DNA of 27,892 bases from a virus, in IMG/VR virus record IMGVR_UViG_3300037585_003250, positions 1 through 27,892 of that record, one strand, 5' to 3'. The notes below the pieces were generated by a model. It made no database searches, was not told the DNA's origin, and saw only the letters and a program-made list of their open reading frames with translations. The translations under genes and the position numbers were made by a program. This document shows, piece by piece, positions 1 to 27,864 of the stretch. How positions within the stretch are numbered: the stretch's first letter is position 1; each line of letters starts with the position of its first letter.

Positions 1-1109
1 GAGAACTCTTCGATCATCATAGGTATATTATAACGCTCTTCGTCTGTCATGTCAAGCACAATATTGTCGTGAATCGTAAATGCTATGAAAGACTGCTTAT
101 CTCGTAGCATATCGTGAACCTTTATTACTTGCCGAAGTACAAGGTCTGCTGTTGTACTCTGAATAATGTAGTTTAGGGCGTGTTTGCGGTCTGCTTCGAT
201 CTCGCGACCAAACATAGTTTTGACATTTTCTCCATCCCAGTACATCTCGCGTACCTTGTCACGGTCATAATACTTGGATAGTTTCGGGTTGGTTTTGTTC
301 TCGTCGTATAACCACGAGAAGAACTTCTGTTTGGCCTCTGCGCGTGTTGTGCCCGCATTAAATAGGTTACGCATGTTCCAGCTATGAATGTCCTCTAGGG
401 GGGTCTCAGAGCCTCCTAGGGCCATAAGGGTGCGAAGCTCTGCGGCATTGAAATCAAGCTCCACAAACCAGTCATTCTGGGGCTTAACAATAGAACGAAA
501 GTCCTTGTCCATAGTCATAACCGGAAATGATGCTTTCTTGGTTGTTAGACGACCAGTTTTGGTGCCGTTGATGTTATATCGACAATATGGGTCGATTTGA
601 GCAAACTTCTTCATTGCCTGCCGATACTTGGGCAAGTGAGCCTTGCTTGAGAGACAAGAAACGTCAATATTTAGCTTCTGGTGTTGGATACGGGCCAGTA
701 CCTTGGTCAAATCAACCAAAAAGTCATAGTTTTGCGGCTTTTCGTAGTTTTCGAACACATATTGCGTGATTTTATTGCGGATTTCGCAATATTCAAGCAA
801 AAATGGCTTTGGAACGAGGTCAAAAAAACAATTCTCGTCCATGTTGACCTTAGCCAGCACAAACGAGCGATAATAAGCCTTCAGTTTAGCCTCAATAGCT
901 GCCCAGTCGTCTACTAAGGGACTTGGGCAAACGTCATTAAGGCTCCGATTTCCACAGAGAATACTAGCGTACTCAACGCTGCTCTCTTGAAGATACTCTG
1001 CATATCGCCACGTCCTTTCAAGACCTGTGGGTAGGTCTTGGAAATATAGTTTCCCATCTTTATACACTCCAATACATTCGCCCTTATCATCGAGCGTTTG
1101 AAAATACAA
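1..1109 (-). CDS. Family A (Pol I-type) DNA polymerase, polymerase domain, 3' end cut by window
   Basis: Template-directed DNA synthesis, presumably phage genome replication. The minus frame is open from the stop at 1125 to the window edge. Numbering from the TTG at 1109 gives 369 codons. Motifs of the Pol I polymerase domain are visible in order: TGRLTT at 185-190 (E. coli TGRLSS), motif A as LDFNAAELR with Asp219, motif B as R256-x3-K260-x3-F264-x3-Y268, QSTTADL at 317-323, and motif C as H347-D348-N349. E. coli has HDE in motif C, so the last residue differs. The roughly 185 residues before TGRLTT are too few for a full 3'-5' exonuclease domain plus thumb, so this looks like a stand-alone polymerase module. 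No ATG lies near the N-terminus. TTG at 1109, preceded by GGGGG, is my best start. It follows the upstream gene by 15 nt. About 20-30 C-terminal residues are probably missing. Family assignment is firm; the start is uncertain. Confidence 0.9.
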   Translation of the reverse strand, partial: MYFQTLDDKGECIGVYKDGKLYFQDLPTGLERTWRYAEYLQESSVEYASILCGNRSLNDVCPSPLVDDWAAIEAKLKAYYRSFVLAKVNMDENCFFDLVPKPFLLEYCEIRNKITQYVFENYEKPQNYDFLVDLTKVLARIQHQKLNIDVSCLSSKAHLPKYRQAMKKFAQIDPYCRYNINGTKTGRLTTKKASFPVMTMDKDFRSIVKPQNDWFVELDFNAAELRTLMALGGSETPLEDIHSWNMRNLFNAGTTRAEAKQKFFSWLYDENKTNPKLSKYYDRDKVREMYWDGENVKTMFGREIEADRKHALNYIIQSTTADLVLRQVIKVHDMLRDKQSFIAFTIHDNIVLDMTDEERYNIPMMIEEF

Positions 1110-9135: not shown

Positions 9136-9145
9136 ACTAAATAGT
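9136..9145 (-). promoter_or_regulatory. Candidate late promoter, ACTATTTAGT
   Basis: The sense strand reads ACTATTTAGT, ending 24 nt before the ATG at 9111. It follows the terminator at 9150-9185 directly, so a new transcript is expected here. It matches the element found in ten other leaders of this window. Confidence 0.6.
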
Positions 9146-10882: not shown

Positions 10883-10892
10883 TGTAAATAGT
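10883..10892 (-). promoter_or_regulatory. Candidate late promoter, ACTATTTACA
   Basis: Sense-strand ACTATTTACA in the 54-nt gap between the first-listed sheath stop (10915) and the tube ATG (10860), 22 nt before the start codon. Confidence 0.6.
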
Positions 10893-10914: not shown

Positions 10915-13914
10915 TTAGTCTTCGAAAGAAGCACCAGATTTAGTAATAATAAAATCAAGCGCGATGAATTCTATAGATCTTGCTGGTTTAAGGTATATTT
11001 TAGCGTACATAATATTTCTATCTACCAAATCAGGTGTTGTGGTTGTTTCATCTAAGATGACTCTATAATCAGTAAGTCCAAATCTAGATTTTACGCTTTG
11101 CAAGAATGGATTGACCATGCTTGTAAATCTCGTCCAAGTAGCTGGGACATTGTTGTCGAACAGAACTTGAGTTGACATTCTAGAGACTTCTTTCTTCAAG
11201 TAGACCAACAGGCGCCGCACGTTAATACGGTCTAGAGCGGAATCAGTCGCCTGAAGTGTTTTCTGTCCAAAGATAACGATACCTTCGGAAGGGAATCTAG
11301 CAATTGGATTAATGTTGTTCTCGTAAAGCTTATCTCTTTGTTTTTGAGTCAGACGTTCAGATACCGAGACAACTGGCAGGCCTGCTGAGCCTTCTGTCAA
11401 GCCGCCACGGTTGAAGCCGGCAGGGGCGAACCAAAGTTCAGAAACCGCTTCTGAGCTAGCCATAGTACCCAGTGCCACAACAGAAGGAGGTGAGTATACG
11501 AGGACATTTGTTCTAGTATCCTTGATCTGAACCCATGGATAGTAAGTACAGCCGTAACTAGTATTTAGGTCTCTGGTTTGAATTGCAGAAACTACACTGT
11601 CTACGGTCCCTAAATTAGTACTGAAAGACTCAGTATTTTCTGTTGAGGGCGTGAAGACGTCTGGCAAGTCAATTATCGCTAAGGCGTCTGCTCTCTCCTC
11701 TGCTACTTCTAGGACACGATCAGTGATATCAGTGTTCGTCACTCCCGGTACCGTAAGTATGTTGTACTCGACGACATCTGCGTCTGCAACAGTTTGAATT
11801 GCGCGGTCTACAGTGTTATAAGCATAGTGGGAATATTTAGTGGTACTACCAGCGGTCCATTGTGAATTTCGCAATGGTTCAGCCTCTGTAATATCGTAAC
11901 CATCATGGCCGCCTGCCATAACCGTCCAGAATCTATCGTGAGAATCAAGAACTTTCTTGTAGCTTGAGCTAACTGCTGTCACACTTGTACCGTCTGCCCT
12001 AGAGCCGGATACCCATTCGCCGTCGCCGGTCAAGGTGTTAAGTCGAACATCATCGAGGGAAAAGACCCATGAATATTCGGAGCCGACGGGTAGTCCAGTA
12101 AGCTCATCAAAACGGCCTGCAACAGTTGTGTGGAAAGGGAATCCTCTTAAGTAATCGGTAATTCCGTGATCTGGGGTTTTTACACCTTTTGTCGTACTAG
12201 TAGATACGCCAAAGAATGCATCGCTTCCGGGGCCCGGGCCGGGACCGTCTGCTGAACTTGAACGCAAGGAGACTCCGGGGAACGGGAACGTACCAGAGAA
12301 TGGGATCCCGGTGGCCTTTCTGCCGTTGCCGGCAATGCGGCCGACGTCGATAAATGCACCGTCATTGGTTGGTTGTTTAATGTGTGTAGTTGCGTCAGAG
12401 CCGGCTATACAGTTTCCTGAACCGTAGGTTTCTATATGAGTCGCGGTTGTGTTCTGGTAGAATTTGTCTGTGAACGCAACTGACCCACTTTCATAAAAAA
12501 CTGTCTGCGGCCGAATAGGACCAGTAACACCAAATGGTAAGCTAGCTGGATTAAAGTCAATATCCAAAGCAGGGTTCATTTCAACACGAATATATTTTGA
12601 TTTGTTATTGTATTGACCATACTCAGTATGTTTTTCTAAAGAATAACTCCAAGAAAGGTGCTTATCTCCTATTCTACTAGCGATATAATTAGGAGAATTC
12701 GGGTTTAAGTTACAATTGGTGTATCTCTCCAATGCTTCAAATTTTGCTGCTTTGTCAGTAGCTCCTATTGGATAGATAGCAACCGTAAAAGACCCAAACG
12801 GTACTAAAGTATTAGGAGATGCCTTAAGATCTTCTATAGCAATCTTAACCTTGTGCCCCTCCATACCGTAGTCACGAGAAACAAACCTGAATAGTTTAGT
12901 TGCCGTATCGGGTGCAGAATGGTTGGCGTTAGCTCCAAAGTCTTGCGAAAAGAACCAGCCTGTCTTAGGATTAACAAAATTGTTTTGGCGATTCGCCCAG
13001 TTAGCTGTGCCGCTGATCATTGGCAAAATTATACCAAACTGAGAGTCGGTTGATGTAGTGCCCTCTTTAACAGCGCGTTCAAATGTTTCACCAAGCCAAT
13101 ATTTATCTTTTTGCTCTGTAACTTCTCCGCTAGTAACAACATCTGAATTTGTCATGACGGGATTTGTGTTAAATACATCGCGAATGTAGCGGCCGCCGGG
13201 GTTAGCAAAGTCGAATTCAAATGTTCTAAAAGAACCCAAAGTTTCACCGGTTGCGACGTGATTTTTCAAGACACACTTAAAGACGTTATTAACATCTTGT
13301 GATTTGATTGCTATAGCTGTACCAGTGACGGCTGTGTTGCCGGACCGGTCCGAACCAGAAAGCATCATGATCGAGCCAGACTGGGTATACCAGACTGCGG
13401 CCAAGGTGCCAGTAGCGAATGTGCCATCAGTGCCGGCGAGGACGCCGGCAGTGTCGCGGCCTTTAAGGCTTCCAGAGTCAAAAACCCATAAACCCCAAGC
13501 GCCTCCGGCAGCAGATTCAAGGCTTGTAGCCGAAGCGCCAAGTTGTGTAGTTCTCCAACCAGCCAGAGTGCCTCCATCGGTTCTAGATTCGTGCTCTTCA
13601 CCTAATGTCCTAACAACCGTAACAGGTGAAACGGCAGCGTTCAACCATGCTTTGGCCGCATATGCAGCGTAAGTGGGCCCTAGAGGAACATTTTCCCTCC
13701 AGACATCGACCCCTTCAGGACCGCCGACAGGATGGCCAAAAGTTTCAACAAATTGTTGGTAGTTTTCAACGGTAACAGGGCGCATAGCTGGGCCTTTTCT
13801 GGTGCGGCCGATAATAGTTGGTCCTAAAATCGGTGGAACCGGCTCAATTATGGATTCATCTACTTCATTAGTGTAGATGCCCGGGGAAATAAACTTAAAT
13901 TTTCTAGCTGCCAT
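10915..13914 (-). CDS. Tail sheath protein, paralogue A (gp18-like, 999 aa)
   Basis: A contractile sheath subunit. It opens MAARKFKFISPGIYTNEVDE and carries IIGRTRKGPAMRP, the usual gp18-type start, in which the N-terminal arm meshes with neighbouring subunits. Mid-protein landmarks are VSRDYGMEGHKVKIAIEDLK, HDRFWTVMAGGHDGYD and VAEERADALAIIDLPDVFTP. The C-terminal core ends LKPARSIEFIALDFIITKSG. T4 gp18 is 659 aa, so this protein carries over 300 extra residues, including a variable stretch around 475-570 probably exposed on the sheath surface. It is a tandem paralogue of the gene at 14020-17433: the last 77 residues differ at only 10 positions. It lacks the inserted domain of that copy. An ACTATTTACT element lies 42 nt upstream of the ATG. 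Confidence 0.93.
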   Translation of the reverse strand: MAARKFKFISPGIYTNEVDESIIEPVPPILGPTIIGRTRKGPAMRPVTVENYQQFVETFGHPVGGPEGVDVWRENVPLGPTYAAYAAKAWLNAAVSPVTVVRTLGEEHESRTDGGTLAGWRTTQLGASATSLESAAGGAWGLWVFDSGSLKGRDTAGVLAGTDGTFATGTLAAVWYTQSGSIMMLSGSDRSGNTAVTGTAIAIKSQDVNNVFKCVLKNHVATGETLGSFRTFEFDFANPGGRYIRDVFNTNPVMTNSDVVTSGEVTEQKDKYWLGETFERAVKEGTTSTDSQFGIILPMISGTANWANRQNNFVNPKTGWFFSQDFGANANHSAPDTATKLFRFVSRDYGMEGHKVKIAIEDLKASPNTLVPFGSFTVAIYPIGATDKAAKFEALERYTNCNLNPNSPNYIASRIGDKHLSWSYSLEKHTEYGQYNNKSKYIRVEMNPALDIDFNPASLPFGVTGPIRPQTVFYESGSVAFTDKFYQNTTATHIETYGSGNCIAGSDATTHIKQPTNDGAFIDVGRIAGNGRKATGIPFSGTFPFPGVSLRSSSADGPGPGPGSDAFFGVSTSTTKGVKTPDHGITDYLRGFPFHTTVAGRFDELTGLPVGSEYSWVFSLDDVRLNTLTGDGEWVSGSRADGTSVTAVSSSYKKVLDSHDRFWTVMAGGHDGYDITEAEPLRNSQWTAGSTTKYSHYAYNTVDRAIQTVADADVVEYNILTVPGVTNTDITDRVLEVAEERADALAIIDLPDVFTPSTENTESFSTNLGTVDSVVSAIQTRDLNTSYGCTYYPWVQIKDTRTNVLVYSPPSVVALGTMASSEAVSELWFAPAGFNRGGLTEGSAGLPVVSVSERLTQKQRDKLYENNINPIARFPSEGIVIFGQKTLQATDSALDRINVRRLLVYLKKEVSRMSTQVLFDNNVPATWTRFTSMVNPFLQSVKSRFGLTDYRVILDETTTTPDLVDRNIMYAKIYLKPARSIEFIALDFIITKSGASFED

Positions 13915-13956: not shown

Positions 13957-13966
13957 AGTAAATAGT
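13957..13966 (-). promoter_or_regulatory. Candidate late promoter, ACTATTTACT
   Basis: Sense-strand ACTATTTACT between the two sheath genes, 42 nt before the ATG at 13914. The preceding CAAAGAACAAAAT resembles the CAAGTAATAAAAT before the equivalent site of the other sheath gene, so this leader was probably duplicated with the gene. Confidence 0.6.
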
Positions 13967-14008: not shown

Positions 14009-14031
14009 TTTGAAGACGCTTAGTCTTCAAA
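14009..14031 (-). terminator. Weak terminator candidate at the end of sheath paralogue B
   Basis: A 9-bp inverted repeat, TTTGAAGAC / GTCTTCAAA, with a 5-nt loop that holds part of the stop codon. The minus-strand sequence after it (TGGCTTTTATAAG) is only modestly U-rich, so termination would be partial at best. Confidence 0.35.
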
Positions 14032-17000
14032 GGAAGCGCCGGACTTGGTGATAATAAAATCAAGTGCAATAAACTCTATAGCTCTTGCAGGCTTTAAGTA
14101 AATCTTTGCATACATAATATTTCTATCTACCAAATCAGGTGTTGTCGTAGACTCGTCTAGGATTACCTTATACTCAGTAATCCCAAATCTTGCCTTCACA
14201 CTACTCAAAAATGGGTTTATTAAACTAGTGAACCTGCTCCAAGTCGCAGGGACGTTGTTATCAAATAACACCTGAGTTGACATTCTGGATACTTCTTTTT
14301 TAAGGAAGATCATGAGTCGACGTACATTGATCCGATCTAAAGCAGAGGGAGTCGCTTGAAGTGTTTTTTGTCCAAACACTACTATGCCATCCGATGATAA
14401 CGAAGCAATTGGGTTAATGTTATTTAGATACAATTCATCTCTTTGACCAAGATTAAGAGTATCAGATACGGCTGTCACAGGTACCCCTCCGTGGCCTCTA
14501 GAGAGTGTTCCTCTCTTATAACCAGCTGGGGCCTTCCACAACTCTGATACAGCCTCAGTGTGGCCCATAGCGCCTAGAGCGACGACAGATGGTGGAGTCC
14601 AAAGCAAGCGACGATTACTCGTGTCTCTAATTTGCACCCATGGATAGTATGCACAAGCATAGCTAGTATTTAATTCTCTATTCTGGATTGAAGAAACTAC
14701 AGAAGTCACTGAACCAAGATTGTTGGCAAAAGACTTGGTATTTTCTGTGCTTGGAGTGAATACATCCGCTAAATCAATAATCGCGAGTGCATCGGCGCGT
14801 TCTTCTGCTATCTCCATTACTCTGTCAGTCAAATCGTTGTTAGTAATGCCGGGAGCTGTTAATAAATTATATTCTATAACATCTTGATCCGCGACAGTAC
14901 CAAGAGCACGGTGAACACTGTTCCAAGCATAATTGGTGTATTTGGTTGTAGTTCCAACAGTCCATTGAGAATTTCTAAGTGGCTCTGCTTCAGTTACATC
15001 GAAACCATCGTGGCCGCCGGCCATGACCGTCCAGAACCTGTCGTGATGATTAAGAATTTCTTTATAACTAGAACTTGTTGCGGTGGCACTGGAGCCATCT
15101 GCCCTAGAGCCAGATACAAACTCTCCGGCGCCGGTTGTGGTGTTAATCCGGATATCATCAAGAGAGAAGACCCATGAGTATTCGGCTCCATAAGATGGCA
15201 GACCAGTTAACTCTTCGAAACGTCCTGCAACTGTAGAATCAAATGGCAATCCTCTTAAATAATCACCTATTCCAGCGTCCGGAGTATTAACTGTTTTCAA
15301 CTTCGTAGTGGAAACCCCAAAATATGCGTCGGCTCCCGGGCCATCACCGGGGCCGTCGACAGAGCTTGAACGTATAGACGGAGCTGGGAATTCGAAACTA
15401 CAAGACATTGGTATCATGCTTGCTGCTGCGTCGGCGCCCATGCTAAACAAGTGGCCTCCGATCTTATTATCCAGCGGATTACCGTATATTTGCCCTCCGG
15501 TCAAGAACGTCTCGAACGTTGCGGCGGCTATAGAAGTAGCACCAGAAGAACCGGGCAATGAACCTTCAGCCTTAGCAAAATGTCTAGAAGTTAAAATACT
15601 TCCACTATGAAAGCCAGCGCCGGATCCACTAACCCAGTGAGCAGTGGGCGGCCGGACAGGCCCAGATACGCCGAATGGCAGACTAGCCTGATTGAAATCA
15701 ACATCCAAAGCGGGGTTCATCTCAACCCGAATATACTTGGATTGATTAGCATATTGACCAATGTGAGTATGTTTATCCAAAGAATATTCCCAGTTGACAT
15801 ATCTGTCGCCTATTCTTCTGGCAATGTAATTCTCGGAGATCGGGTTTAGATTGCAATTAGTATATTTTTCTAACGCTTCAAATTTGGCTTTCTTATCAGC
15901 AGTTCCAATTGGGTAGATACCCACCGTGAAAGATCCATAAGGCGAAGTAGGATTTGGTGAGGCTTTAATATCCTCAATAGCAATCTTAATTTTATGTCCT
16001 TCCATTCCATAATCACGAGAAACAAATCTGAATAGTCTAGTCGTGGTGTCGGGTGCCGAGAAGCTGCTGTTGGCGCCAAAGTCTTGTGAGAAAAACCAAC
16101 CCGTTTTAGGATTAACATAGTTGTTTCGGCGGAAAGACCAGTTAACTGACCCACTAAGGAGAGGAAGTATAATACCAAACTGACTATCCGTTGATGTGGT
16201 TTTTTCGTTTAACTGCCGCTCAAAAGTCTCACCAAGCCAATATTTATTCTTCATAGCACTGACTTCGCCTGATGTGACAACATCCGAATTCGTCAAAACC
16301 GGGTTGGTGTTGAAAATGTCTCGGACATATTGACCACCATTAGGGTCGAAGTTAAATTTGAAGACTTGCGAATTCTCCTCGGTGCCACCGGAAAAATCTG
16401 TTTTTGATATGTTACCACCTAAAGAAGTTAAAGTGATTGTAGTATTTCCAGCCGTACCTGCGATACTTTGTACTAAAGTTAATTGTTGACCGGAGTCGAC
16501 TGTCGCGGTAGATGCAACAATTGTTCCATTGTGGCCGGCTGCATTATTTATACAATCCACTAGAGATGCAGCTACTGCGGAATCTCCGCCGCTGTCTCCA
16601 TCAAACTGGTTTGCGGCCAAATTTTCAGTTCCCTTTGCAGTATATGTTACTGTTTTGCCGGCACCATCAGTTATTGCAACTGTTCCATCGAGAGTTACAT
16701 GTGCTGCAATATTTATTGTTGCAGTTGCCTTAATACCCGTTCCGTCGTCGCCGGAGGAATAAGATTTCAAAACAGTCTTAAATTCATTATTCACCCCTTG
16801 CGATTTAATGAAGACGGCGGTACCGGTGACGGCCGCGGTTTGGCCTCTAGAAGTACCTGACATCATCATAATCGAACCGGAGTCGCAATACCATATCGCG
16901 GCGAGGGTGCCTGTGGCTGAATTGCCAGCGCCATTCTTGAGGTCGTTGGTTTCAGCACAAGAAGCGGAATCAAAAATCCACATTCCGTAAGCTCCGCCTT

Positions 17001-17433
17001 GCATAGAACCAGAAGCTGCCAAGCTATTAAGATAATCTGTAGTTAGGTTGGCCTTAGAGCCTTGTGTTGTCTTCCAACCGGCCAGAACGCCATCAGAGTC
17101 TCTAGAATCGTGTTCTTCTCCTAGCACACGAACAATGGTTGCTGGCGAAACATTAGAATTAAGCCATGCTTTGGCAGCATATGATGCATATGTTGGGCCG
17201 GCGGGAGTGTTAGCTCTCCATAAATCGCCTGTCTCTGGGCCCGGAACAGGGTCGCCGAAAGTTTCAACAAATTCTTGATAATTCTCTACTTTGATAGGGC
17301 GCATTGCGGGGCCTTTTCTAGTCCTTCCTACGATGAGGGGGCCTAAAACAGGCGGGGTAGGTGTGATTATGGACTCATCCACTTCATTTATATAAACACC
17401 GGGTGAAATGAATTTAAATTTTCTAGCTGCCAT
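14020..17433 (-). CDS. Tail sheath protein, paralogue B (gp18-like, 1137 aa) with inserted beta-rich domain
   Basis: A second contractile-sheath gene directly upstream of paralogue A, sharing its N-terminal arm (MAARKFKFISPGVYINEVDE), the GRTRKGPAMRP segment, VSRDYGMEGHKIKIAIEDIK, HDRFWTVMAGGHDGFD and the C-terminal core. It is 138 residues longer. Most of the difference is one block at about residues 230-353 (DNA about 16375-16746), absent from paralogue A, with Thr/Gly/Ala-rich beta-strand character: TVAITDGAGKTVTYTAKGTE, AVAASLVDCINNAAGHNGTI, and LVQSIAGTAGNTTITLTSLG. Such modules recur, from memory, as insertions in phage virion proteins. A second variable stretch aligns with the variable region of paralogue A (about 600-695). 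ATG at 17433 has an AAGGAG SD, and ACTATTTATC lies 30 nt upstream. Confidence 0.93.
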   Translation of the reverse strand: MAARKFKFISPGVYINEVDESIITPTPPVLGPLIVGRTRKGPAMRPIKVENYQEFVETFGDPVPGPETGDLWRANTPAGPTYASYAAKAWLNSNVSPATIVRVLGEEHDSRDSDGVLAGWKTTQGSKANLTTDYLNSLAASGSMQGGAYGMWIFDSASCAETNDLKNGAGNSATGTLAAIWYCDSGSIMMMSGTSRGQTAAVTGTAVFIKSQGVNNEFKTVLKSYSSGDDGTGIKATATINIAAHVTLDGTVAITDGAGKTVTYTAKGTENLAANQFDGDSGGDSAVAASLVDCINNAAGHNGTIVASTATVDSGQQLTLVQSIAGTAGNTTITLTSLGGNISKTDFSGGTEENSQVFKFNFDPNGGQYVRDIFNTNPVLTNSDVVTSGEVSAMKNKYWLGETFERQLNEKTTSTDSQFGIILPLLSGSVNWSFRRNNYVNPKTGWFFSQDFGANSSFSAPDTTTRLFRFVSRDYGMEGHKIKIAIEDIKASPNPTSPYGSFTVGIYPIGTADKKAKFEALEKYTNCNLNPISENYIARRIGDRYVNWEYSLDKHTHIGQYANQSKYIRVEMNPALDVDFNQASLPFGVSGPVRPPTAHWVSGSGAGFHSGSILTSRHFAKAEGSLPGSSGATSIAAATFETFLTGGQIYGNPLDNKIGGHLFSMGADAAASMIPMSCSFEFPAPSIRSSSVDGPGDGPGADAYFGVSTTKLKTVNTPDAGIGDYLRGLPFDSTVAGRFEELTGLPSYGAEYSWVFSLDDIRINTTTGAGEFVSGSRADGSSATATSSSYKEILNHHDRFWTVMAGGHDGFDVTEAEPLRNSQWTVGTTTKYTNYAWNSVHRALGTVADQDVIEYNLLTAPGITNNDLTDRVMEIAEERADALAIIDLADVFTPSTENTKSFANNLGSVTSVVSSIQNRELNTSYACAYYPWVQIRDTSNRRLLWTPPSVVALGAMGHTEAVSELWKAPAGYKRGTLSRGHGGVPVTAVSDTLNLGQRDELYLNNINPIASLSSDGIVVFGQKTLQATPSALDRINVRRLMIFLKKEVSRMSTQVLFDNNVPATWSRFTSLINPFLSSVKARFGITEYKVILDESTTTPDLVDRNIMYAKIYLKPARAIEFIALDFIITKSGASFED
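16375..16746 (-). other. Inserted beta-rich domain within sheath paralogue B
   Basis: Codes for about residues 230-353 of the 1137-aa sheath protein. Flanking residues (VLKSYSSGDD before, SQVFKFNFDPNGG after) align with contiguous sequence in paralogue A (VLKNHVATGE, RTFEFDFANPGG). The block is therefore a discrete insertion in one copy or a deletion in the other. Boundaries are approximate. Confidence 0.7.
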
Positions 17434-17463: not shown

Positions 17464-17473
17464 GATAAATAGT
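17464..17473 (-). promoter_or_regulatory. Candidate late promoter, ACTATTTATC
   Basis: Sense-strand ACTATTTATC in the 63-nt gap after the gp15-like stop, 30 nt before the ATG of sheath paralogue B. Confidence 0.6.
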
Positions 17474-20180: not shown

Positions 20181-20654
20181 CTATATACTGGCTACAAATA
20201 ATTCTAAGTCCACAGAGGCTGAATTGGCAATAGCTCTGATGGACTTCAAGTCTTCTAAATTTATGCCACTAATGTCTGAATAGTTGGTAACACCAGCGTC
20301 GTCCGAACCGCTGTCTTGTGTAGTCATTAGGAGGTGGGATCCCGTGGGATCCAACCTGAATGAGTAATCTGTTGAGGCTGAGCCCTGAAACCTTAAGGTA
20401 GCATAATTAGTATCGTCTAAGTTAGTAATTCTTAGATACCTAACATCAGTATTTATAAATTGGCCGGCTGATGCCGAAGGTTCGAAACGGATTATCTCTG
20501 TAGATGCTGTGCCATTGGTTGCAACTAATCTTCTTGAGATTTCAGATATACTGCCAACGGTATACCGCGTTATCCCACCATAGTCGGTGCCATTCATAGT
20601 AATCCGCTCGCGTATAGTTACGTTTAACGGTGCTGGTGTAAATGTACTCGCCAT
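20181..20654 (-). CDS. Unknown 157-aa beta-rich protein, probably virion-associated
   Basis: I cannot assign a family. The protein is mostly alternating hydrophobic strands: PLNVTIRERITMNGTDYGGI, TEIIRFEPSASAGQF, VRYLRITNLDDTNYATLRFQ and SHLLMTTQDS, ending IRAIANSASVDLELFVASI. This suggests a beta-sandwich, as in decoration or fibre-base proteins. It is similar in style to the 143-aa protein at 26433-26864 (a PSASxS segment beside xVRYLRITN- or VTVRN-type strands), though homology is not established. It begins its own unit: ACTACTTACT lies 39 nt upstream and the SD AAGGAGGG is strong. It is followed closely by the putative neck gene. Confidence 0.75.
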   Translation of the reverse strand: MASTFTPAPLNVTIRERITMNGTDYGGITRYTVGSISEISRRLVATNGTASTEIIRFEPSASAGQFINTDVRYLRITNLDDTNYATLRFQGSASTDYSFRLDPTGSHLLMTTQDSGSDDAGVTNYSDISGINLEDLKSIRAIANSASVDLELFVASI

Positions 20655-20754: not shown

Positions 20755-20937
20755 CTATGCCGTTTTAGTCTTTTTAGATGCTTTAGGCTTTTTAGTCACT
20801 TTTTTAGTAACAGCCGCTGCTGGTGCGGGGGCTGGTACGGATTCTTGGCTGCCATCTCTACGGGCGCCCAAAGCTTTCTGCTCTGCTCTTCGAGCTTGTT
20901 TCCTCTCCCAGTAAAAAACTTTATTATTTGCGGTCAT
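20755..20937 (-). CDS. Unknown 60-aa basic protein with Lys/Ala/Pro-rich tail
   Basis: MTANNKVFYWERKQARRAEQ opens a charged helical half of about 28 residues. A Pro/Ala linker (VPAPAPAAA) and a lysine-rich tail (TKKVTKKPKASKKTKTA) follow. The composition resembles histone H1-like tails, which would fit nucleic-acid binding or a DNA-packing internal head protein; this is inference from composition only. The frame extends upstream to 21003, but I start at 20937: AAAGGAG lies just upstream, and the longer version would read into the terminator at 21000-21033 and past the ACTAATTACT element. It has its own terminator-promoter-SD arrangement, so it is a real unit. Confidence 0.75.
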   Translation of the reverse strand: MTANNKVFYWERKQARRAEQKALGARRDGSQESVPAPAPAAAVTKKVTKKPKASKKTKTA

Positions 20938-20979
20938 GATAGATCTCCTTTGTTTATAACCGTATTTTGTCACGGATAC

Positions 20980-20989
20980 AGTAATTAGT
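20980..20989 (-). promoter_or_regulatory. Candidate late promoter variant, ACTAATTACT
   Basis: One mismatch from ACTATTTACT. It lies just after the terminator at 21000-21033 and 42 nt before the ATG at 20937. Confidence 0.5.
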
Positions 20990-20999
20990 CCCATACAAA

Positions 21000-21033
21000 A
21001 CAAAAACCCCCAACCAATGTAGGAAGGGGGTTT
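21000..21033 (-). terminator. Intrinsic terminator after the 212-aa gene
   Basis: AAACCCCC (21004-21011) pairs with GGGGGTTT (21026-21033), with an inner CC/GG pair. On the minus strand the stem is followed by TTTTTGTTTTGT. It lies 25 nt past the stop at 21059. Confidence 0.8.
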
Positions 21034-22991: not shown

Positions 22992-23022
22992 ATAAAAAAA
23001 CCCGCCCTCAAAAGAGGGCGGG
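22992..23022 (-). terminator. Intrinsic terminator of the major capsid gene
   Basis: A perfect 9-bp GC-rich stem, CCCGCCCTC (23001-23009) with GAGGGCGGG (23014-23022), and a 4-nt loop. A run of Ts follows on the minus strand. It lies 24 nt past the stop at 23047. Confidence 0.93.
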
Positions 23023-23046
23023 TCGGTTTTAGTTAACCGCTACGGA

Positions 23047-24912
23047 TTAGGCAGTTGTCTTGCCGGCCTCACCAAGGAGTCCGCGGACAATAACCAGTCC
23101 ATACATATCAGCACGCACCATTTGCTTGGCATACCGAGTCATCACGCCCTTGCGAGGAGTGAAGTCTTCAGGTCCAAAGATGGTTGGTGTGACTTGCAGA
23201 GGAACATACGGAGCATAAACATAGCCACTTTCGAGGAAGCTACCACCCTTACGGCCAACGAGGACCACATTACGAGGGAAGTATGGGTCGACATAGACGT
23301 CCCACTTCTTGGAAAGAGAACCAGTTTTAACAGCACCGATAGTGCCCTTGTCGTCATCAGCTGTGACCGCTGCGCGGAAACCACTTGTGAACTCAAGGAT
23401 GTTAGCAACTTCAGGTGAACACACCACAAAGTTAGCACCACCCCGGAGAGTCTTACGGTGGATCTGAGCAGAAACGTCATTGATGGTTTCGATCAGAGTC
23501 TCATACCATTCGCTAACAGTACCAGTGAAGTCTGGAGCAGCCGAAGCATGTCCAACTTCAAGTCCTGTAGTGCGATGGACGAAGAGACCGGGTGAACGAG
23601 CCCAGTAGTACGTTCCAGCAGTTGCGCCTCGAACGAGGTCGTTAACGATCTCGCGGTCGATCTCAAGAGCAATATGCTCAGAGAGAACACTAGTAAGCTC
23701 AACCTCAGCGTCCAAGTTGTGGTAAGCGTTGAGGTCCTGACCTAACTCAGGAGTCCACTTAGCTTTCAACTTCTTGGTCATAGCTGTTACAGCAATACTA
23801 TCCACCTTGATGTCAATCTCAGGGATTACATCGCGCTCGATACCATCGAAATCAGCGTTGTCATTACCAGCGCCTTCAAGACCCCATGTGGTAGTACCCT
23901 TGACAGAGCCAAGGCCGTTACCAGCAGAGAATTGATCAGCATGCGGGAAAATCAGGTCAGCTGTTGCAGCAGTGATATCAGCATCAGCCGCATTTGTCGA
24001 TCCCAAGAAAGTAAAGCGAATGTAGTCTTTACTAGGACGGAATGTCAAACGACGAACTGGGTGGATATCCTCATCACCGGTAATACCGAAGCTAGTATCT
24101 GTGATACCAGTGGTTGTACCAGAAGGAGTAAGCGTAAACGCGACCATGTTATCGAAATTCATGAAAGCCTGTTGAGCTTCGGAAACTTCGACATCAGCTT
24201 GAAGTACCTTAAGGGTACCATTAGACGAGCCAGAGAACGCAAGAAGATCAGGATCATAACGAAGCTGTTTCTTCTGGCCTTCTGTCAGGCTGTTAATAGC
24301 TGTGAACGTGTTAACAGCGGCGCTACCGCCTGCAAAGCCACCAGATGCCTCAATAGCAACAGCCACAACTGGGGTTTGATTAAGAATCGAACCTGTTGGG
24401 GATGTGTAGCCATTATTGAGTCCATAGAAACTGGACTCGGCTCCAGAGCCAAGAACCGTCGTAGCAGCGGTGCCGGGCACCTCTTCTCCGAGATTCACGC
24501 CACCAGTAATCTGGTTGGCAACAACTCCACCACCGTAGATAGAGTCACCGGAATCGGCGCCTCCTGCACGAGTGTTTGCATATGTGAAGTCGAGGAAGAA
24601 AATGAGGCCCGAGGGCAAACTCATTGGTTGAACACTAACGAGATCGTTAGCTAAAAGTCCACCGAATACACGACGGACGAGAGGGAAAGCAACAGATGCG
24701 AATCCTTCAACATCACCGCCTGCCATAGAAGAAGCTTCTTTTAGAAGCTGCTTAGCTTGGTTCTCAAGAAGTCTAGCCATACCTTGTTTCTCATGGTCTT
24801 GGCTTAGTCCTTCGAGAAGACCAGTCTTCTCCCACTTGGACAGTAATGCATCGCCTTCCTTGGCAAGGTCACGATGGACAATACCTTCAGTTAGTTTATT
24901 TAATACTGACAT
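23047..24912 (-). CDS. Major capsid protein (gp23-like)
   Basis: A 621-aa precursor of the main head lattice subunit. T4 gp23 landmarks are clear: VAFPLVRRVFGGLLANDLVS, PSGLIFFLDFTYANT, KLKAKWTPELGQDLNAYHNL with DAEVELTSVLSEHIALEIDR, FVVCSPEVANILE, YVYAPYVPLQVTP and GPEDFTPRKGVMTRYAKQM. T4 gp23 is 521 aa, so the middle carries extra residues. The helical N-terminal 59 residues look like a delta peptide for scaffold interaction. LKE-A at 57-60 fits the LxE|A/G/S rule of gp21-type proteases, so the mature protein probably starts at Ala60. The SD is exceptionally long (24918-24929). ACTATAAATC lies 27 nt upstream of the ATG, and a strong terminator follows. Confidence 0.96.
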   Translation of the reverse strand: MSVLNKLTEGIVHRDLAKEGDALLSKWEKTGLLEGLSQDHEKQGMARLLENQAKQLLKEASSMAGGDVEGFASVAFPLVRRVFGGLLANDLVSVQPMSLPSGLIFFLDFTYANTRAGGADSGDSIYGGGVVANQITGGVNLGEEVPGTAATTVLGSGAESSFYGLNNGYTSPTGSILNQTPVVAVAIEASGGFAGGSAAVNTFTAINSLTEGQKKQLRYDPDLLAFSGSSNGTLKVLQADVEVSEAQQAFMNFDNMVAFTLTPSGTTTGITDTSFGITGDEDIHPVRRLTFRPSKDYIRFTFLGSTNAADADITAATADLIFPHADQFSAGNGLGSVKGTTTWGLEGAGNDNADFDGIERDVIPEIDIKVDSIAVTAMTKKLKAKWTPELGQDLNAYHNLDAEVELTSVLSEHIALEIDREIVNDLVRGATAGTYYWARSPGLFVHRTTGLEVGHASAAPDFTGTVSEWYETLIETINDVSAQIHRKTLRGGANFVVCSPEVANILEFTSGFRAAVTADDDKGTIGAVKTGSLSKKWDVYVDPYFPRNVVLVGRKGGSFLESGYVYAPYVPLQVTPTIFGPEDFTPRKGVMTRYAKQMVRADMYGLVIVRGLLGEAGKTTA

Positions 24913-24917
24913 TTTAA

Positions 24918-24929
24918 ATCACCTCCTTT
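24918..24929 (-). promoter_or_regulatory. Extended Shine-Dalgarno of the major capsid gene
   Basis: The sense strand reads AAAGGAGGTGAT, 12 consecutive bases complementary to the canonical 16S rRNA 3' end (ATCACCTCCTTT). GGAGG is 9 nt from the ATG. Other genes in the window have 4-7 base SDs, so this leader is unusually strong. Confidence 0.85.
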
Positions 24930-24958: not shown

Positions 24959-26023
24959 CTATTTGGAAATACCCGCCAGTCTTTGGAACCGATCTTTCAC
25001 AGCAGTTTCCCGCGGTGTGTTTTCGTTTCTTCTTCTTGGCATGGTAGTTGAAGGTCTCTTGATAGCTTCGTTCAGTGATTTCGGTCTCCTATTTGGAGTA
25101 CCCACTGCACTTTGAAGGGTTTCATAGATAACCTTCGCTTCCTCTATAGAATCCGATTTCTGAATAGAATCGACAATTTTTGATTTTTGTCGCTCATTCA
25201 GGGAGGGACTATTCAATGTTCGATTTATATAGAGTAAACGTGCGTTTGAAAGGTTAACTTCTTCAAGCTTTTCTTTCAAACGTAAAATTAATGTCTTGTA
25301 TTCCTTGTTGGACTCCATAATAGAAACAGAGGATTTCTCTAGTTCTTGGATCCTTGCAAGGCTTTCACCTAGACGAATTTCTAAAGCATCTTTTTCTGGA
25401 CTTTCTTCTGTTTCTTCTTCGTCCATCTGGCCGGCTTTTTCCAGTTCTTCTTCATATTCCATTACGCCTGTAGGAACTGAGTCTCCGGGGTGTGCTGCCC
25501 ATCCCGTGGGTTGCGCTCCCATATCGCGAAGAACAGCTTCTAGTAAGTCGTCATCAACCTCGAAGTCCTCTCCGAGCATACCCATAAGATCTTCTTCTTC
25601 ATCATCTTCTGGAGACATTGGCATCTCCATTTCTGGACCGACGTCCGGTCCGATCTCCATCGGCAGTTCTTCGTGTGGGGCAGGCTCTCCCATTTTCATT
25701 TCGTCAGCGACGGCTAGGAGATCCTCTAGTTTAAATTCAATTTGCATATCCGCTTTCTCGTCCGGACAAGGGCAGAGTGGCTGCTCTTCGGCGGCACCCA
25801 TGGCGACGGCCTCCTCTGGCGGCATTGCTAGAGCGTCTGGCTCTGGCTCTGCACCTAGGCCGAGCATTGCTTCTTCTGGAGGCATTTCTTGCTCCAACAA
25901 AGAATCAACAGCGTTTTTCACTTCGGCTGAGTACCTTTCTAATATAGCTGTTTCGGCGTTTTTAAGCGCAGCAGCTCTCAAATCATTAGCATCGATTATA
26001 GCCTGTTCAAGCAATGAAGACAT
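24959..26023 (-). CDS. Prohead core scaffold protein (gp22-like)
   Basis: A 354-aa internal scaffold that would organise capsid assembly and be degraded by the prohead protease. Typical gp22 features are present. Residues about 43-210 are extremely acidic and Met/Pro-rich (SPEDDEEEDLMGMLGEDFEV). A coiled coil covers about 210-265, followed by ARLLYINRTLNSPSLNERQK, the recurrent gp22 C-terminal signature, and a basic tail. Cys84 and Cys86 lie in QPLCPCPDE. It sits directly before the major capsid gene, as in T4. SD AGAGGG precedes the ATG, and ACTATTTATT lies 30 nt upstream. The plus-strand open frame here is only the antisense of the Glu/Asp-rich codons. Confidence 0.88.
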   Translation of the reverse strand: MSSLLEQAIIDANDLRAAALKNAETAILERYSAEVKNAVDSLLEQEMPPEEAMLGLGAEPEPDALAMPPEEAVAMGAAEEQPLCPCPDEKADMQIEFKLEDLLAVADEMKMGEPAPHEELPMEIGPDVGPEMEMPMSPEDDEEEDLMGMLGEDFEVDDDLLEAVLRDMGAQPTGWAAHPGDSVPTGVMEYEEELEKAGQMDEEETEESPEKDALEIRLGESLARIQELEKSSVSIMESNKEYKTLILRLKEKLEEVNLSNARLLYINRTLNSPSLNERQKSKIVDSIQKSDSIEEAKVIYETLQSAVGTPNRRPKSLNEAIKRPSTTMPRRRNENTPRETAVKDRFQRLAGISK

Positions 26024-26053: not shown

Positions 26054-26063
26054 AATAAATAGT
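26054..26063 (-). promoter_or_regulatory. Candidate late promoter, ACTATTTATT
   Basis: Sense-strand ACTATTTATT in the 95-nt gap between the bS21-like stop (26119) and the scaffold ATG (26023), 30 nt before the start. Confidence 0.6.
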
Positions 26064-26118: not shown

Positions 26119-26421
26119 TTACTTGTCCCTTTGAGCTTTCTCTATAACCCTTTTTCGTCTTAATTTCTCTCGCCTCTTTATATCAGAGGGCTTTTCGTAA
26201 TACTGTCGTTTACGGAAATCCTCGACAATTTTGATCTTTTTGCACTTTTTTAAGAACCTTTTTATAGTTCTTTCCGGGTTTTCGCCGGGTCGTGCCACTA
26301 CCGTGACGTGCGAAGGTTTATTACCTTTTGTGTTTATTTTGGGGGCGTCATGCCTGCGTCTTCGATTACCGTAATCGTCTCTATTGTCACGGTGGTTGAA
26401 TCTTTTTCTGTTATAAGCCAT
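26119..26421 (-). CDS. rpsU-like: Ribosomal protein bS21 homologue encoded by the phage
   Basis: A 100-aa very basic protein. Residues 38-97 match small-subunit protein bS21 along its length: SHVTVVARPGENPERTIKRF (E. coli IKVRENEPFDVALRRF), LKKCKKIKIVEDFRKRQYYE (SCEKAGVLAEVRRREFYE), then KPSDIKRREKLRRKRVIEKA. In bacteria bS21 binds the 30S platform near the 16S 3' end and helps initiation. Phage-borne bS21 genes are known from cultivated and metagenomic phages. Unusual here is a 37-residue Arg/Asn/Asp-rich N-terminal extension absent from bacterial bS21. The gene lies inside the late head operon, 11 nt after the 143-aa gene and directly before the scaffold gene. It probably swaps into host ribosomes to favour phage mRNAs; that role is inference. 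Confidence 0.9.
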   Translation of the reverse strand: MAYNRKRFNHRDNRDDYGNRRRRHDAPKINTKGNKPSHVTVVARPGENPERTIKRFLKKCKKIKIVEDFRKRQYYEKPSDIKRREKLRRKRVIEKAQRDK

Positions 26422-26432
26422 TATTTACTCTG

Positions 26433-26864
26433 TTATCCGACACCATCGAGGCCAGACCACGACGATGTTAAGCTAGAGAATGGAATATTAGTTAGGCCTG
26501 CAATGACAGTAGCATACTGATCGTCGGCGGCTCCAGATGCCATCAAATATAGTTTTGTAACACGCATGTCTGCGGAGAAGGATGCGGATGGTTGCAACAT
26601 CACAAAATTAGCTTCTTCCGGGTTTAGACCGTTCCTAGAAAAAGAAACCTTAATCTCTCCCAGTTGTCCTGCGGCGCCGCCGCCATCATTCCTAACAGTA
26701 ACAAACTTTGAAACACTTGGAAGTACAACTTCCGCGGCTGTTGTATTAGCGCCCGTATCAGGTACCTGAATCAGCGTCTTAATATACGGTCTTCCGCTAA
26801 CTTGATATGAGCCAACGTTACTTAGCCCAACTTGATATCTTCCGAAATGAAAATTATCCGACAT
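26433..26864 (-). CDS. Unknown 143-aa beta-rich protein, possible capsid decoration or fibre component
   Basis: Strand-rich protein: GRYQVGLSNVGSYQVSGRPY, SKFVTVRNDGGGAAGQ, GEIKVSFSRNGLN, FVMLQPSASFSADMRVTKLY and YATVIAGLTNIP. The layout (framework strands with xVTVRN, a Gly-rich loop, then LQPSASFSADMR) is reminiscent of small beta-sandwich phage surface proteins, but I cannot name the family. It heads a short unit with the bS21 homologue: ACTATTTATA lies 18 nt upstream of the ATG, SD GAGAGGA is present, and the bS21 gene follows after 11 nt. Co-expression with bS21 is therefore likely. Confidence 0.75.
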   Translation of the reverse strand: MSDNFHFGRYQVGLSNVGSYQVSGRPYIKTLIQVPDTGANTTAAEVVLPSVSKFVTVRNDGGGAAGQLGEIKVSFSRNGLNPEEANFVMLQPSASFSADMRVTKLYLMASGAADDQYATVIAGLTNIPFSSLTSSWSGLDGVG

Positions 26865-26882: not shown

Positions 26883-26892
26883 TATAAATAGT
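26883..26892 (-). promoter_or_regulatory. Candidate late promoter, ACTATTTATA
   Basis: Sense-strand ACTATTTATA, 18 nt before the ATG at 26864, the closest spacing of the set. Read on the plus strand it contains an exact TATAAATA, but no plus-strand gene would be served. Confidence 0.55.
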
Positions 26893-26893
26893 C

Positions 26894-27325
26894 CTAGCCT
26901 AGTAAAGCTTTCCAGTTTTTTCCACCCAAAGCCATAATTCCCGAAATATCTACTCCGGGGTCTTGAGGGTCAATTCCAGTAAGAGCGCCGCCACGTTGGC
27001 TTTTCGTGGCGCCGGCTTCATAATTTGATAACGGCTCTGTTCCTTCAAAAACGTTAATCCCATTAAAAGTCTCTTTTTTAAAAGAGTTTAATAACTCTTT
27101 CTTGTCTTCATCCATTCGCTTCCGAACTTCTTGAATTCGTGCGGTATCATGTGAAGATGTTGGTTGTGGGGCCGAGGTGTGCTGTTCGCGCATAATTGGC
27201 TGAACGTTTATACCTTTTACCACTTCCGATATAACCCCTGAAAGAAGACCTTCTTCAAGAAGAGATTCGTGGATACACTCTTTAACAAGGGGCTTAATAA
27301 TTTTTTTTAGATCTGCTCTTTTCAT
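26894..27325 (-). CDS. Unknown 143-aa protein overlapping the prohead protease gene, possible prohead core component
   Basis: A basic helical N-terminus (MKRADLKKIIKPLVKECIHE) is followed by SLLEEGLLSGVISEVV, a Ser/Pro/Gln linker (45-60), a charged helix (RIQEVRKRMDEDKKELLNSF) and a C-terminal part with GIDPQDPGVDISGIMALGGK. I recall such N-termini from small proteins beside gp21 in marine T4-like phages but no assigned function. The ATG overlaps the protease stop in ATGA, so translation is coupled to gp21. LEEG at 23-26 and VFEG near 92-95 resemble protease cleavage signals, so it could be a core protein cut during maturation, like T4 gp67/gp68. That is speculative. Confidence 0.75.
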   Translation of the reverse strand: MKRADLKKIIKPLVKECIHESLLEEGLLSGVISEVVKGINVQPIMREQHTSAPQPTSSHDTARIQEVRKRMDEDKKELLNSFKKETFNGINVFEGTEPLSNYEAGATKSQRGGALTGIDPQDPGVDISGIMALGGKNWKALLG

Positions 27326-27864
27326 TTTTCTCTCAAGATGTCGTTCATAATACGATTAATTTTGTCTGCTTTGGTAAAGATGTTTGGATCCTTACTCTCT
27401 TTCATCATAAAGGCGCCGGGTGTTGAAGGCTCTGATACAAAATCAAAGCATATCAATTGGAAGTCATCTTCTACAATTGTGTTACCCTTCTCTTCTCTGG
27501 TTGATCCTAAGCCTCGTGACGAAATGCCAAGCGTAACGCCAGATTGTGCTAGGTTTTTAAGAATCTCGCCTGATGGTGTGTTTAGGATTTCAACTTTACC
27601 CATAAGGGCTTCTCCATCCCACCACATGTCTGTGACAAGGTGAGATGCGTTTTTAAGATTAATAACTGAATCGTCAGGATGGTCCAACTCACCCAATGCC
27701 CGACGCTCCTTAACAAGCTTCCAATAATTTTCTACTTCACGTTGAAGTATCCTCTTCTTGTACACGCGGCCATTGCCATTAGGCGTGTCAAACTTCTGCA
27801 TACAACCAGTCATGTAAAACTTCTTGCCTGCGGCCATAAGTTTCTTCTCTTCCTCGTTCAGCAT
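27322..27864 (-). CDS. Prohead maturation protease (gp21-like)
   Basis: A 180-aa serine protease of the T4 gp21 type that cleaves scaffold and capsid precursors inside the prohead. Key segments match T4 gp21: KKFYMTGCMQKFDTPNGNGR and VYKKRIL (T4 GVFLQAEVQNRNGRIYPRKL), ALGELDHPDDS with catalytic His62, DMWWDGEALMGKV, and GISSRGLGST with the nucleophile among Ser115/116. Asp141 in CFDFVSEPSTPGA is the probable third member. It is shorter than T4 gp21 (212 aa). The frame stays open upstream to the window edge, but the ATG at 27864 aligns with the family N-terminus and has GGAGGGG about 12 nt upstream. The next gene starts within its stop. The portal gene (gp20) would be expected just outside the window. 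Confidence 0.92.
   Translation of the reverse strand: MLNEEEKKLMAAGKKFYMTGCMQKFDTPNGNGRVYKKRILQREVENYWKLVKERRALGELDHPDDSVINLKNASHLVTDMWWDGEALMGKVEILNTPSGEILKNLAQSGVTLGISSRGLGSTREEKGNTIVEDDFQLICFDFVSEPSTPGAFMMKESKDPNIFTKADKINRIMNDILREK

Follow-up and report, generated by a model that had tools for sequence, protein, structure and literature searches.

The window, by which we mean the whole stretch of 27,892 nucleotides of viral DNA that was analyzed, carries in its head operon a gene for a phage form of ribosomal protein bS21 with a basic N-terminal extension. On the evidence of its sequence, the assignment to bS21 is confirmed by three profile libraries and by matches to solved structures, and the protein is a real, well-conserved form of a phenomenon that is already published. 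We propose, with a probability of about one half, that this paralog joins or replaces the bS21 of the host late in infection; its core would do the ordinary job of the protein and its tail would hold late leaders or the 16S tail. The tail, the link between the tail and the position of the gene in the operon, and a strand-specific sequence element of the lineage are seemingly new, not having been found in print.

Identity of the Protein

The gene and its two parts are placed as follows:

26119-26421, minus strand: phage bS21 gene, 100 amino acids, ATG start (PF01165, TIGR00030 and PDB sequence matches)
26131-26310, minus strand: bS21 core, residues 38-97 (Pfam match to residues 40-92; AlphaFold helices)
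26311-26421, minus strand: Arg/Asn-rich basic extension, residues 1-37, predicted to be disordered (pLDDT, composition and pN/pS)

The original prediction claimed homology to bS21 for residues 38-97, and profile searches bear this out. The Pfam family Ribosomal_S21 (PF01165) matches residues 40-92 over profile positions 1-53 of 55, with 50.5 bits against a curated cut-off of 27 (E = 1.7e-13). This significant match is backed by TIGR00030 (S21p; 41.3 bits, cut-off 28.95) and by PHROG 21469, “ribosomal protein S21” (E = 1.3e-8). Among the sequence matches of the protein in the PDB with E up to 1, 36 of 38 are bS21 or its organelle forms. An AlphaFold model, built from an alignment of 16 sequences, has core helices at residues 49-63, 65-73 and 80-99, with block pLDDT values of 75-94 from residue 41. 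Foldseek searches with this model returned a best E of 0.27, which is not significant; ranks 1-12 of the 13 matches are chains from ribosome entries, several of them bS21 as judged by the PDB sequence matches. With the window protein as the query, tblastn against phages gave no match, perhaps since low-complexity masking removes much of the query; the homolog from locus L015 did recover phage bS21s.

The Head Operon

The neighborhood of the gene comprises these features:

27322-27864, minus strand: gp21 prohead protease (PF03420, 104.3 bits)
26894-27325, minus strand: g143b, a conserved small gene after the protease, 143 amino acids (in 86 of 91 listed head-operon loci)
26433-26864, minus strand: g143, 143 amino acids, predicted to be beta-rich (beta-sandwich), first gene of the g143-bS21 unit (model and synteny)
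24959-26023, minus strand: gene at the gp22 (scaffold) position, 354 amino acids, acidic (between protease and major capsid protein, kept in relatives)
23047-24912, minus strand: gp23 major capsid protein (PF07068, 254.8 bits)
22999-23024, minus strand: hairpin like an intrinsic terminator, downstream of the capsid gene (stem of 11 pairs followed by a T run)

All 24 complete genes analyzed, as well as a polymerase gene cut at the left end of the window, lie on the minus strand, and family matches identify a prohead protease, a major capsid protein, a tail tube, a tail sheath and a baseplate. The bS21 gene sits within a few genes of the protease and the capsid protein on the same strand, and its predicted location inside a capsid operon is thus upheld. 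It begins 11 nt after g143. The model of g143 (pTM 0.67, mean pLDDT 71) consists mostly of strands, and its BFVD matches are mainly unnamed or uncharacterized phage proteins (best E 2.1e-5). No Pfam or PHROG family matches g143b above cut-off. The protein at the scaffold position likewise has no match in Pfam or PHROG; we name it for its position and its acidic make-up (81 Asp and Glu against 38 Lys and Arg residues). Terminator-like sites number nine in the region, compared to 4.5 expected.

Two other loci of the window deserve mention. A small Lys/Ala-rich protein with a TTG start is encoded at 20755-21003 (minus strand), with a hairpin-like stretch of a C run and a G run just upstream. Part of a family A-type DNA polymerase (3-1109, minus strand; PF00476, 56.8 bits), cut by the window end, sits in this phage with T4-like head and tail genes; the DNA polymerase of T4 is a family B enzyme.

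Scans of viral contigs yielded 34 loci and then the best 80 of 408 relatives (4 repeats), for at least 110 viral loci. Those with at least one of the protease, scaffold-position and capsid genes beside bS21 form the head-operon set, 91 of the 110 listed; L016-L032, L034 and L035 were left out. A separate viral bS21 group of the MKKF...RQKEW type (L016-L021, L024, L030, L031, L034 and L035) has none of the head genes of the window in view. Within the head-operon set, the protease is in view in 82 of the 91 listed loci, always before bS21 and on its strand, and the scaffold-position gene (60/91) and the capsid gene (55/91), where seen, always follow on the same strand, with the best match of each gene per locus being counted. 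The bS21 gene therefore shares the strand of the structural genes in the window and in 91 of 91 listed loci. Two arrangements occur. In one, that of the window, bS21 follows g143; in the other, it precedes g143 and follows the protease and g143b.

A search anchored on the capsid gene led to a similar picture. Among the best 80 of 594 relatives, 35 include over 3 kb of sequence ahead of the capsid gene, and in 25 of these bS21 lies in that stretch. In four of the other ten listed records, bS21 is matched farther upstream, at 8.7-12.8 kb and in the same orientation, one of these matches falling short of the Pfam cut-off; the remaining six have no bS21, and their contigs run out no more than about 8.2 kb before the capsid gene. 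The gene is common in the lineage, with no clear absence among the loci listed, which does not prove fixation. The whole records of Flavobacterium phage immuto and Rhodothermus phage RM378 gave no bS21 match.

The late structural context of the gene had been put forward as a novelty. This we reject, because phage bS21 near protease and capsid genes is in print: passages of Chen et al. 2022 (PMC9723584) describe bS21 beside genes for TerL, portal, prohead protease and major capsid protein. Structural genes lie within ten genes of bS21 in 388 of 900 published bS21 phages, the prohead protease in 310 and the capsid protein in 154. The same passages have bS21 transcribed together with structural genes, though the region is not one operon, and propose both a takeover of the ribosome late in infection and the packaging of bS21. 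The phages described there resemble the window in the nearness of bS21 to protease and capsid genes. However, their bS21 lies on the opposite strand from the structural genes and is Bacteroidetes-like, with an aromatic residue at position 54, whereas the protein of the window shares the strand of its neighbors, has no aromatic residue there and bears a 37-residue tail.

Other named phages provide closer or more distant comparisons. The cultured Microcystis phage Mel-JY01 (PP395634), on which we found no paper in the open-license literature, has the order protease, small gene, bS21 and, further on, major capsid protein on one strand, as in the window; but its annotated RpsU has 75 residues and a short N-terminus, and its capsid Shine-Dalgarno (SD) sequence is weak (-6.4 kcal/mol). 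The bS21s of Pelagibacter phage HTVC008M and of Mosig are like that of the window in their cores, but are 67 and 69 residues long with no long tail, and their genes neighbor those for heat-shock and clamp proteins, the annotation of the stretches seen including no head gene.

A Strand-Specific Promoter-Like Element

The original prediction placed the gene under a late-type element. The exact T4 late octamer TATAAATA does occur at 26883, but on the plus strand, against the direction of the gene; the nearest exact copy on the coding strand is at 20457, and there is none near bS21. A one-mismatch copy, TATAAAGA, lies at 26884 on the coding strand, where the window has 36 such copies, exact ones included. 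Across the 91 listed head-operon loci, TATAAATA has 18 hits on the coding strand versus 89 on the non-coding strand. With the wrong strand at the gene and this count in the relatives, a T4 late promoter is rejected.

A different element, ACTATTTA, is distributed as a promoter might be:

26885-26892, minus strand: ACTATTTA before g143, promoter-like, candidate late element (motif scan)
26056-26063, minus strand: ACTATTTA before the scaffold-position gene (motif scan)
9138-9145, 10885-10892, 13959-13966 and 17466-17473, minus strand: other ACTATTTA sites (motif scan)

The window has seven copies, compared to 1.6 expected; six are on the coding strand, in gaps between genes. In the 91 listed head-operon loci, where chance would give about 20 per strand, the coding strand has 236 copies and the opposite strand 11; for the immuto stretch the figures are 8 and 2. 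Taking each gene to start at the first ATG of its frame, by which single distances may be off, the element is found within 110 nt of the start of g143 in 29 of 70 listed loci, of the scaffold-position gene in 38 of 60 and of g438 in 15 of 32; the corresponding figures are 0 of 89 for bS21, 0 of 55 for the capsid gene, 0 of 80 for the protease and 2 of 85 for g143b. The 215 distinct instances often have G at -20/-19 and G-A at +13/+14. In the late-promoter and cyanophage literature, the string CTATTTA appears, among the matches listed, only in baculovirus work. The adjacent tail sheath paralogs of the window (10915-13914 and 14020-17433, minus strand; 999 and 1137 amino acids), both of which match tail sheath families, each have their own ACTATTTA element.

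We read ACTATTTA as a promoter-like element of this lineage that marks transcription units and as a candidate lineage-specific late promoter, the lateness being judged from the genes that it precedes. The 11-nt gap, the copies of the element before g143 and before the scaffold-position gene, and the hairpin after the capsid gene suggest that g143 and bS21 are likely one unit. In the arrangement of the window, bS21 would then ride behind g143; in the other, it would ride behind the protease and g143b.

The N-Terminal Extension

Residues 1-37 are 32% Arg and Lys and 16% Asn, with no Glu and a net charge of about +8, and block pLDDT values across residues 1-30 are 49-52. In all eight pairs of relatives compared, pN in the tail is below pS, which is near saturation, and it amounts to 1.3-3.2 times the pN of the core. 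Comparison of the window with its closest listed relatives, L002 and L116, gives the tail a pN of 0.37-0.46 and a pS of 0.72-1.00, and the core a pN of 0.25. The tail behaves as coding sequence. Of the 17 long-tail proteins that were compared, 15 start with M-x-Y, and Arg and Lys make up 26-43%; in the long tails, make-up is kept more than letters.

The predicted extension is not only real but common to relatives. At least ten extra residues are present in 22 of 24 distinct listed proteins encoded after g143, ranging from a short type (“MSYRDRKF”) up to the long form that the window has, and in 3 of 36 encoded before g143; two of these three are doubtful (L176 and L177, which probably have mis-picked starts). 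Where g143 is out of view, 8 of 21 distinct listed proteins are extended. These lengths are profile-based, a regular expression having under-measured L155 and L162. Fewer than ten extra residues are found in 48 of 81 distinct listed head-operon proteins, and the tail is not required for the head-operon position. A tree of 89 viral rows requires 4 changes of the long-tail label, compared to 21.4 with shuffled labels, and 10 of the arrangement label, compared to 22.1; the bS21 trees rest on about 63 columns and are rough. Among the matches listed in the open-license literature, we found no phage bS21 described as having an Arg/Asn-rich extension at its N-terminus. The bS21c of plastids also has residues before its core, the match starting at residue 38-96 of chains of 137-190 amino acids; but it is an organelle protein, and the likeness noted is that of having an extension.

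These observations bear on a simpler explanation, that the phage copy tops up or swaps bS21 and keeps initiation high as host synthesis fails, with the tail as a neutral ornament. The core is far better conserved than the tail, most distinct listed head-operon proteins do without an extension of ten residues, and the leader of the bS21 gene ranks only 23rd of 24 in SD strength in the window (-3.4 kcal/mol), all of which such a replacement would accommodate. However, the tail has persisted with the same make-up and the same M-x-Y start through wide divergence, its label changes far less often than shuffled labels do, and its pN is below its pS. We consider this explanation rather unlikely.

A basic tail could instead bind DNA or the acidic scaffold, with the protein being packaged with the head and injected. 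The gene does lie between the protease and the scaffold position in relatives, and the scaffold-position protein is acidic. In T4, the capsid-targeting cleavage pattern is a hydrophobic residue, any residue and Glu before a small residue. Because residues 1-37 contain no Glu, this pattern cannot lie there in the window protein; the tails of some relatives do hold one or two Glu residues. Although packaging has been proposed in print (PMC9723584), constraint is tighter on the ribosomal core than on the tail, and a role in the virion or its assembly seems improbable to us.

Phylogeny and Host

A tree was built from 162 rows, of which 73 are cellular. In it, one clade (support 99/94) unites 83 phage head-operon rows and includes no sampled cellular row. 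A clade of 28 rows (99/92) contains the window protein and most of the tailed forms, though not the tailed L127, L128, L130, L149 and L156. The bS21s of HTVC008M and Mosig are outside the 83-row clade, as is that of Mel-JY01, which has a very long branch and a placement flagged as unsure by the tool. Seven of 169 distinct rows, with core matches under 50 residues (the L016-type group), were dropped from the tree. The sampled cellular rows nearest the head-operon clade are mainly from Planctomycetota. The cellular rows were gathered with a phage-derived pattern as 80 of 199 relatives, with no Cyanobacteria or Alphaproteobacteria by title and no cellular Bacteroidota. Two of the 80, L041 (Acidiferrobacteraceae MAG) and L098 (Flavobacteriales MAG), are phage contigs with a head operon and bS21; these could point to hosts or result from mis-binning. 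Recent capture from a host is not supported by this single clade without a sampled cellular row. The cellular sampling is biased, and we therefore claim no donor.

Judged by the capsid protein, the nearest isolate is a Flavobacterium phage, with 47% identity across 64% of that protein. Nevertheless, a Bacteroidia host is less likely, as the genes of this phage lack the SD excess that the window genes have. The mean SD energy in the window is -8.97 kcal/mol, versus -5.37 for shuffled leaders (z -8.4); z is -6.4 for Mel-JY01 and 0.1 for immuto. Since SD use in the window is far above that of shuffled leaders, a Bacteroidia-type ribosome with a hidden anti-SD is unlikely for the host. At the position of Tyr54 of Flavobacterium johnsoniae bS21, the window protein reads K-R-V around the site with no aromatic residue, which is in line with an anti-SD that is not hidden. 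By ungapped offset, 24 of 89 listed head-type loci (the window counted) have an aromatic residue there; 3 of 92 could not be placed. No psbA-type family match was found in 17 related records, many of them fragments, which speaks weakly against a cyanobacterial host. No tRNA was found in the window or in 11 stretches of three related contigs.

The Capsid Shine-Dalgarno Sequence

24918-24928, minus strand: 11-nt extended SD of the capsid gene (-20.3 kcal/mol, rank 1 of 24 genes)

The capsid SD had been called unusually long, rightly so: its 11 nt pair with the 16S tail at -20.3 kcal/mol, and the next-best SD in the window reaches -12.9 kcal/mol. Capsid starts were placed by an N-terminal motif in 54 loci, 53 of them viral head-operon loci; the SD energy list has several misplaced capsid starts, such as those of L122, L123, L131, L145 and L169. 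The extended SD (GGAGGTGA) is kept in 10 of the 54 listed relatives with a placed start. Of the listed loci, it occurs in 8 of 19 whose bS21 has a long extension, in 0 of 8 where the extension is short and in 2 of 26 that lack one; these counts share descent. Two close tailed relatives, L117 and L120, are without it; the capsid-anchored L260 and L276 have it, and their bS21 matches lie at distances of 8.8 and 8.7 kb, respectively. Across phages, tail and extended SD are linked weakly and not independently of descent.

The N-terminal helix of bS21 is described as lying over the anti-SD, and the protein as sitting at the SD-anti-SD helix (PMC9723584). In E. coli, bS21 is said to hinder extended SD pairing (PMC13009471), and ribosomes of Flavobacterium without bS21 are described as favoring extended SDs (PMC9976891). 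Mizuno et al. 2019 (PMC6375957) describe the entry of HTVC008M bS21 into E. coli 70S ribosomes, with translation in vitro down to about 5%. From the latter figure, a phage bS21 may inhibit rather than redirect. The protein could accordingly be a shut-off factor that poisons host-type initiation, such that only phage mRNAs with strong SDs, e.g., that of the capsid gene, are translated. Both the Flavobacterium ribosomes and the rank of the capsid SD, the strongest of 24, would suit this idea. Yet the 5% activity may reflect a species mismatch, as its authors note, and several other structural genes of the window have ordinary or weak SDs. We regard a shut-off function as quite unlikely.

A Proposed Role in Late Translation

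We favor the reading in which, late in infection, the phage bS21 would replace or join the host protein at its site on the 30S platform beside the SD-anti-SD helix. The conserved core would do the ordinary bS21 job, while the tail, predicted to be disordered, would extend near the point where mRNA leaves the ribosome and there hold either the 16S tail or the 5' leaders of late phage transcripts. By analogy with HTVC008M bS21 in E. coli, the window protein would enter the ribosome; we infer the late timing and the action of the tail. Retuning of initiation by the protein at the time of capsid mRNA synthesis is a hypothesis that agrees with where bS21 sits, at the SD-anti-SD helix. A basic-tailed bS21 and an 11-nt capsid leader fit a ribosome adapted to late phage messages, a matter of fit and not of function. 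A bolder version, which we think has a small chance of being right, is that the phage builds its own class of late ribosome: the tailed bS21 would widen or hold the SD-anti-SD groove so that extended SDs are preferred, and the tail would be an mRNA clamp. If so, the tail and the extended SD would be a matched pair of ribosome and message.

The specialization of ribosomes by viruses is often proposed but rarely tested. This lineage offers a natural comparison, as bS21 has stayed in the head operon of related phages that differ in whether they have the tail and in whether they have the extended capsid SD. Swaps of tail and leader would show directly whether a phage ribosomal protein selects mRNAs. 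A tailed, lineage-specific bS21 may help the phage to steer ribosomes to its own messages late in infection.
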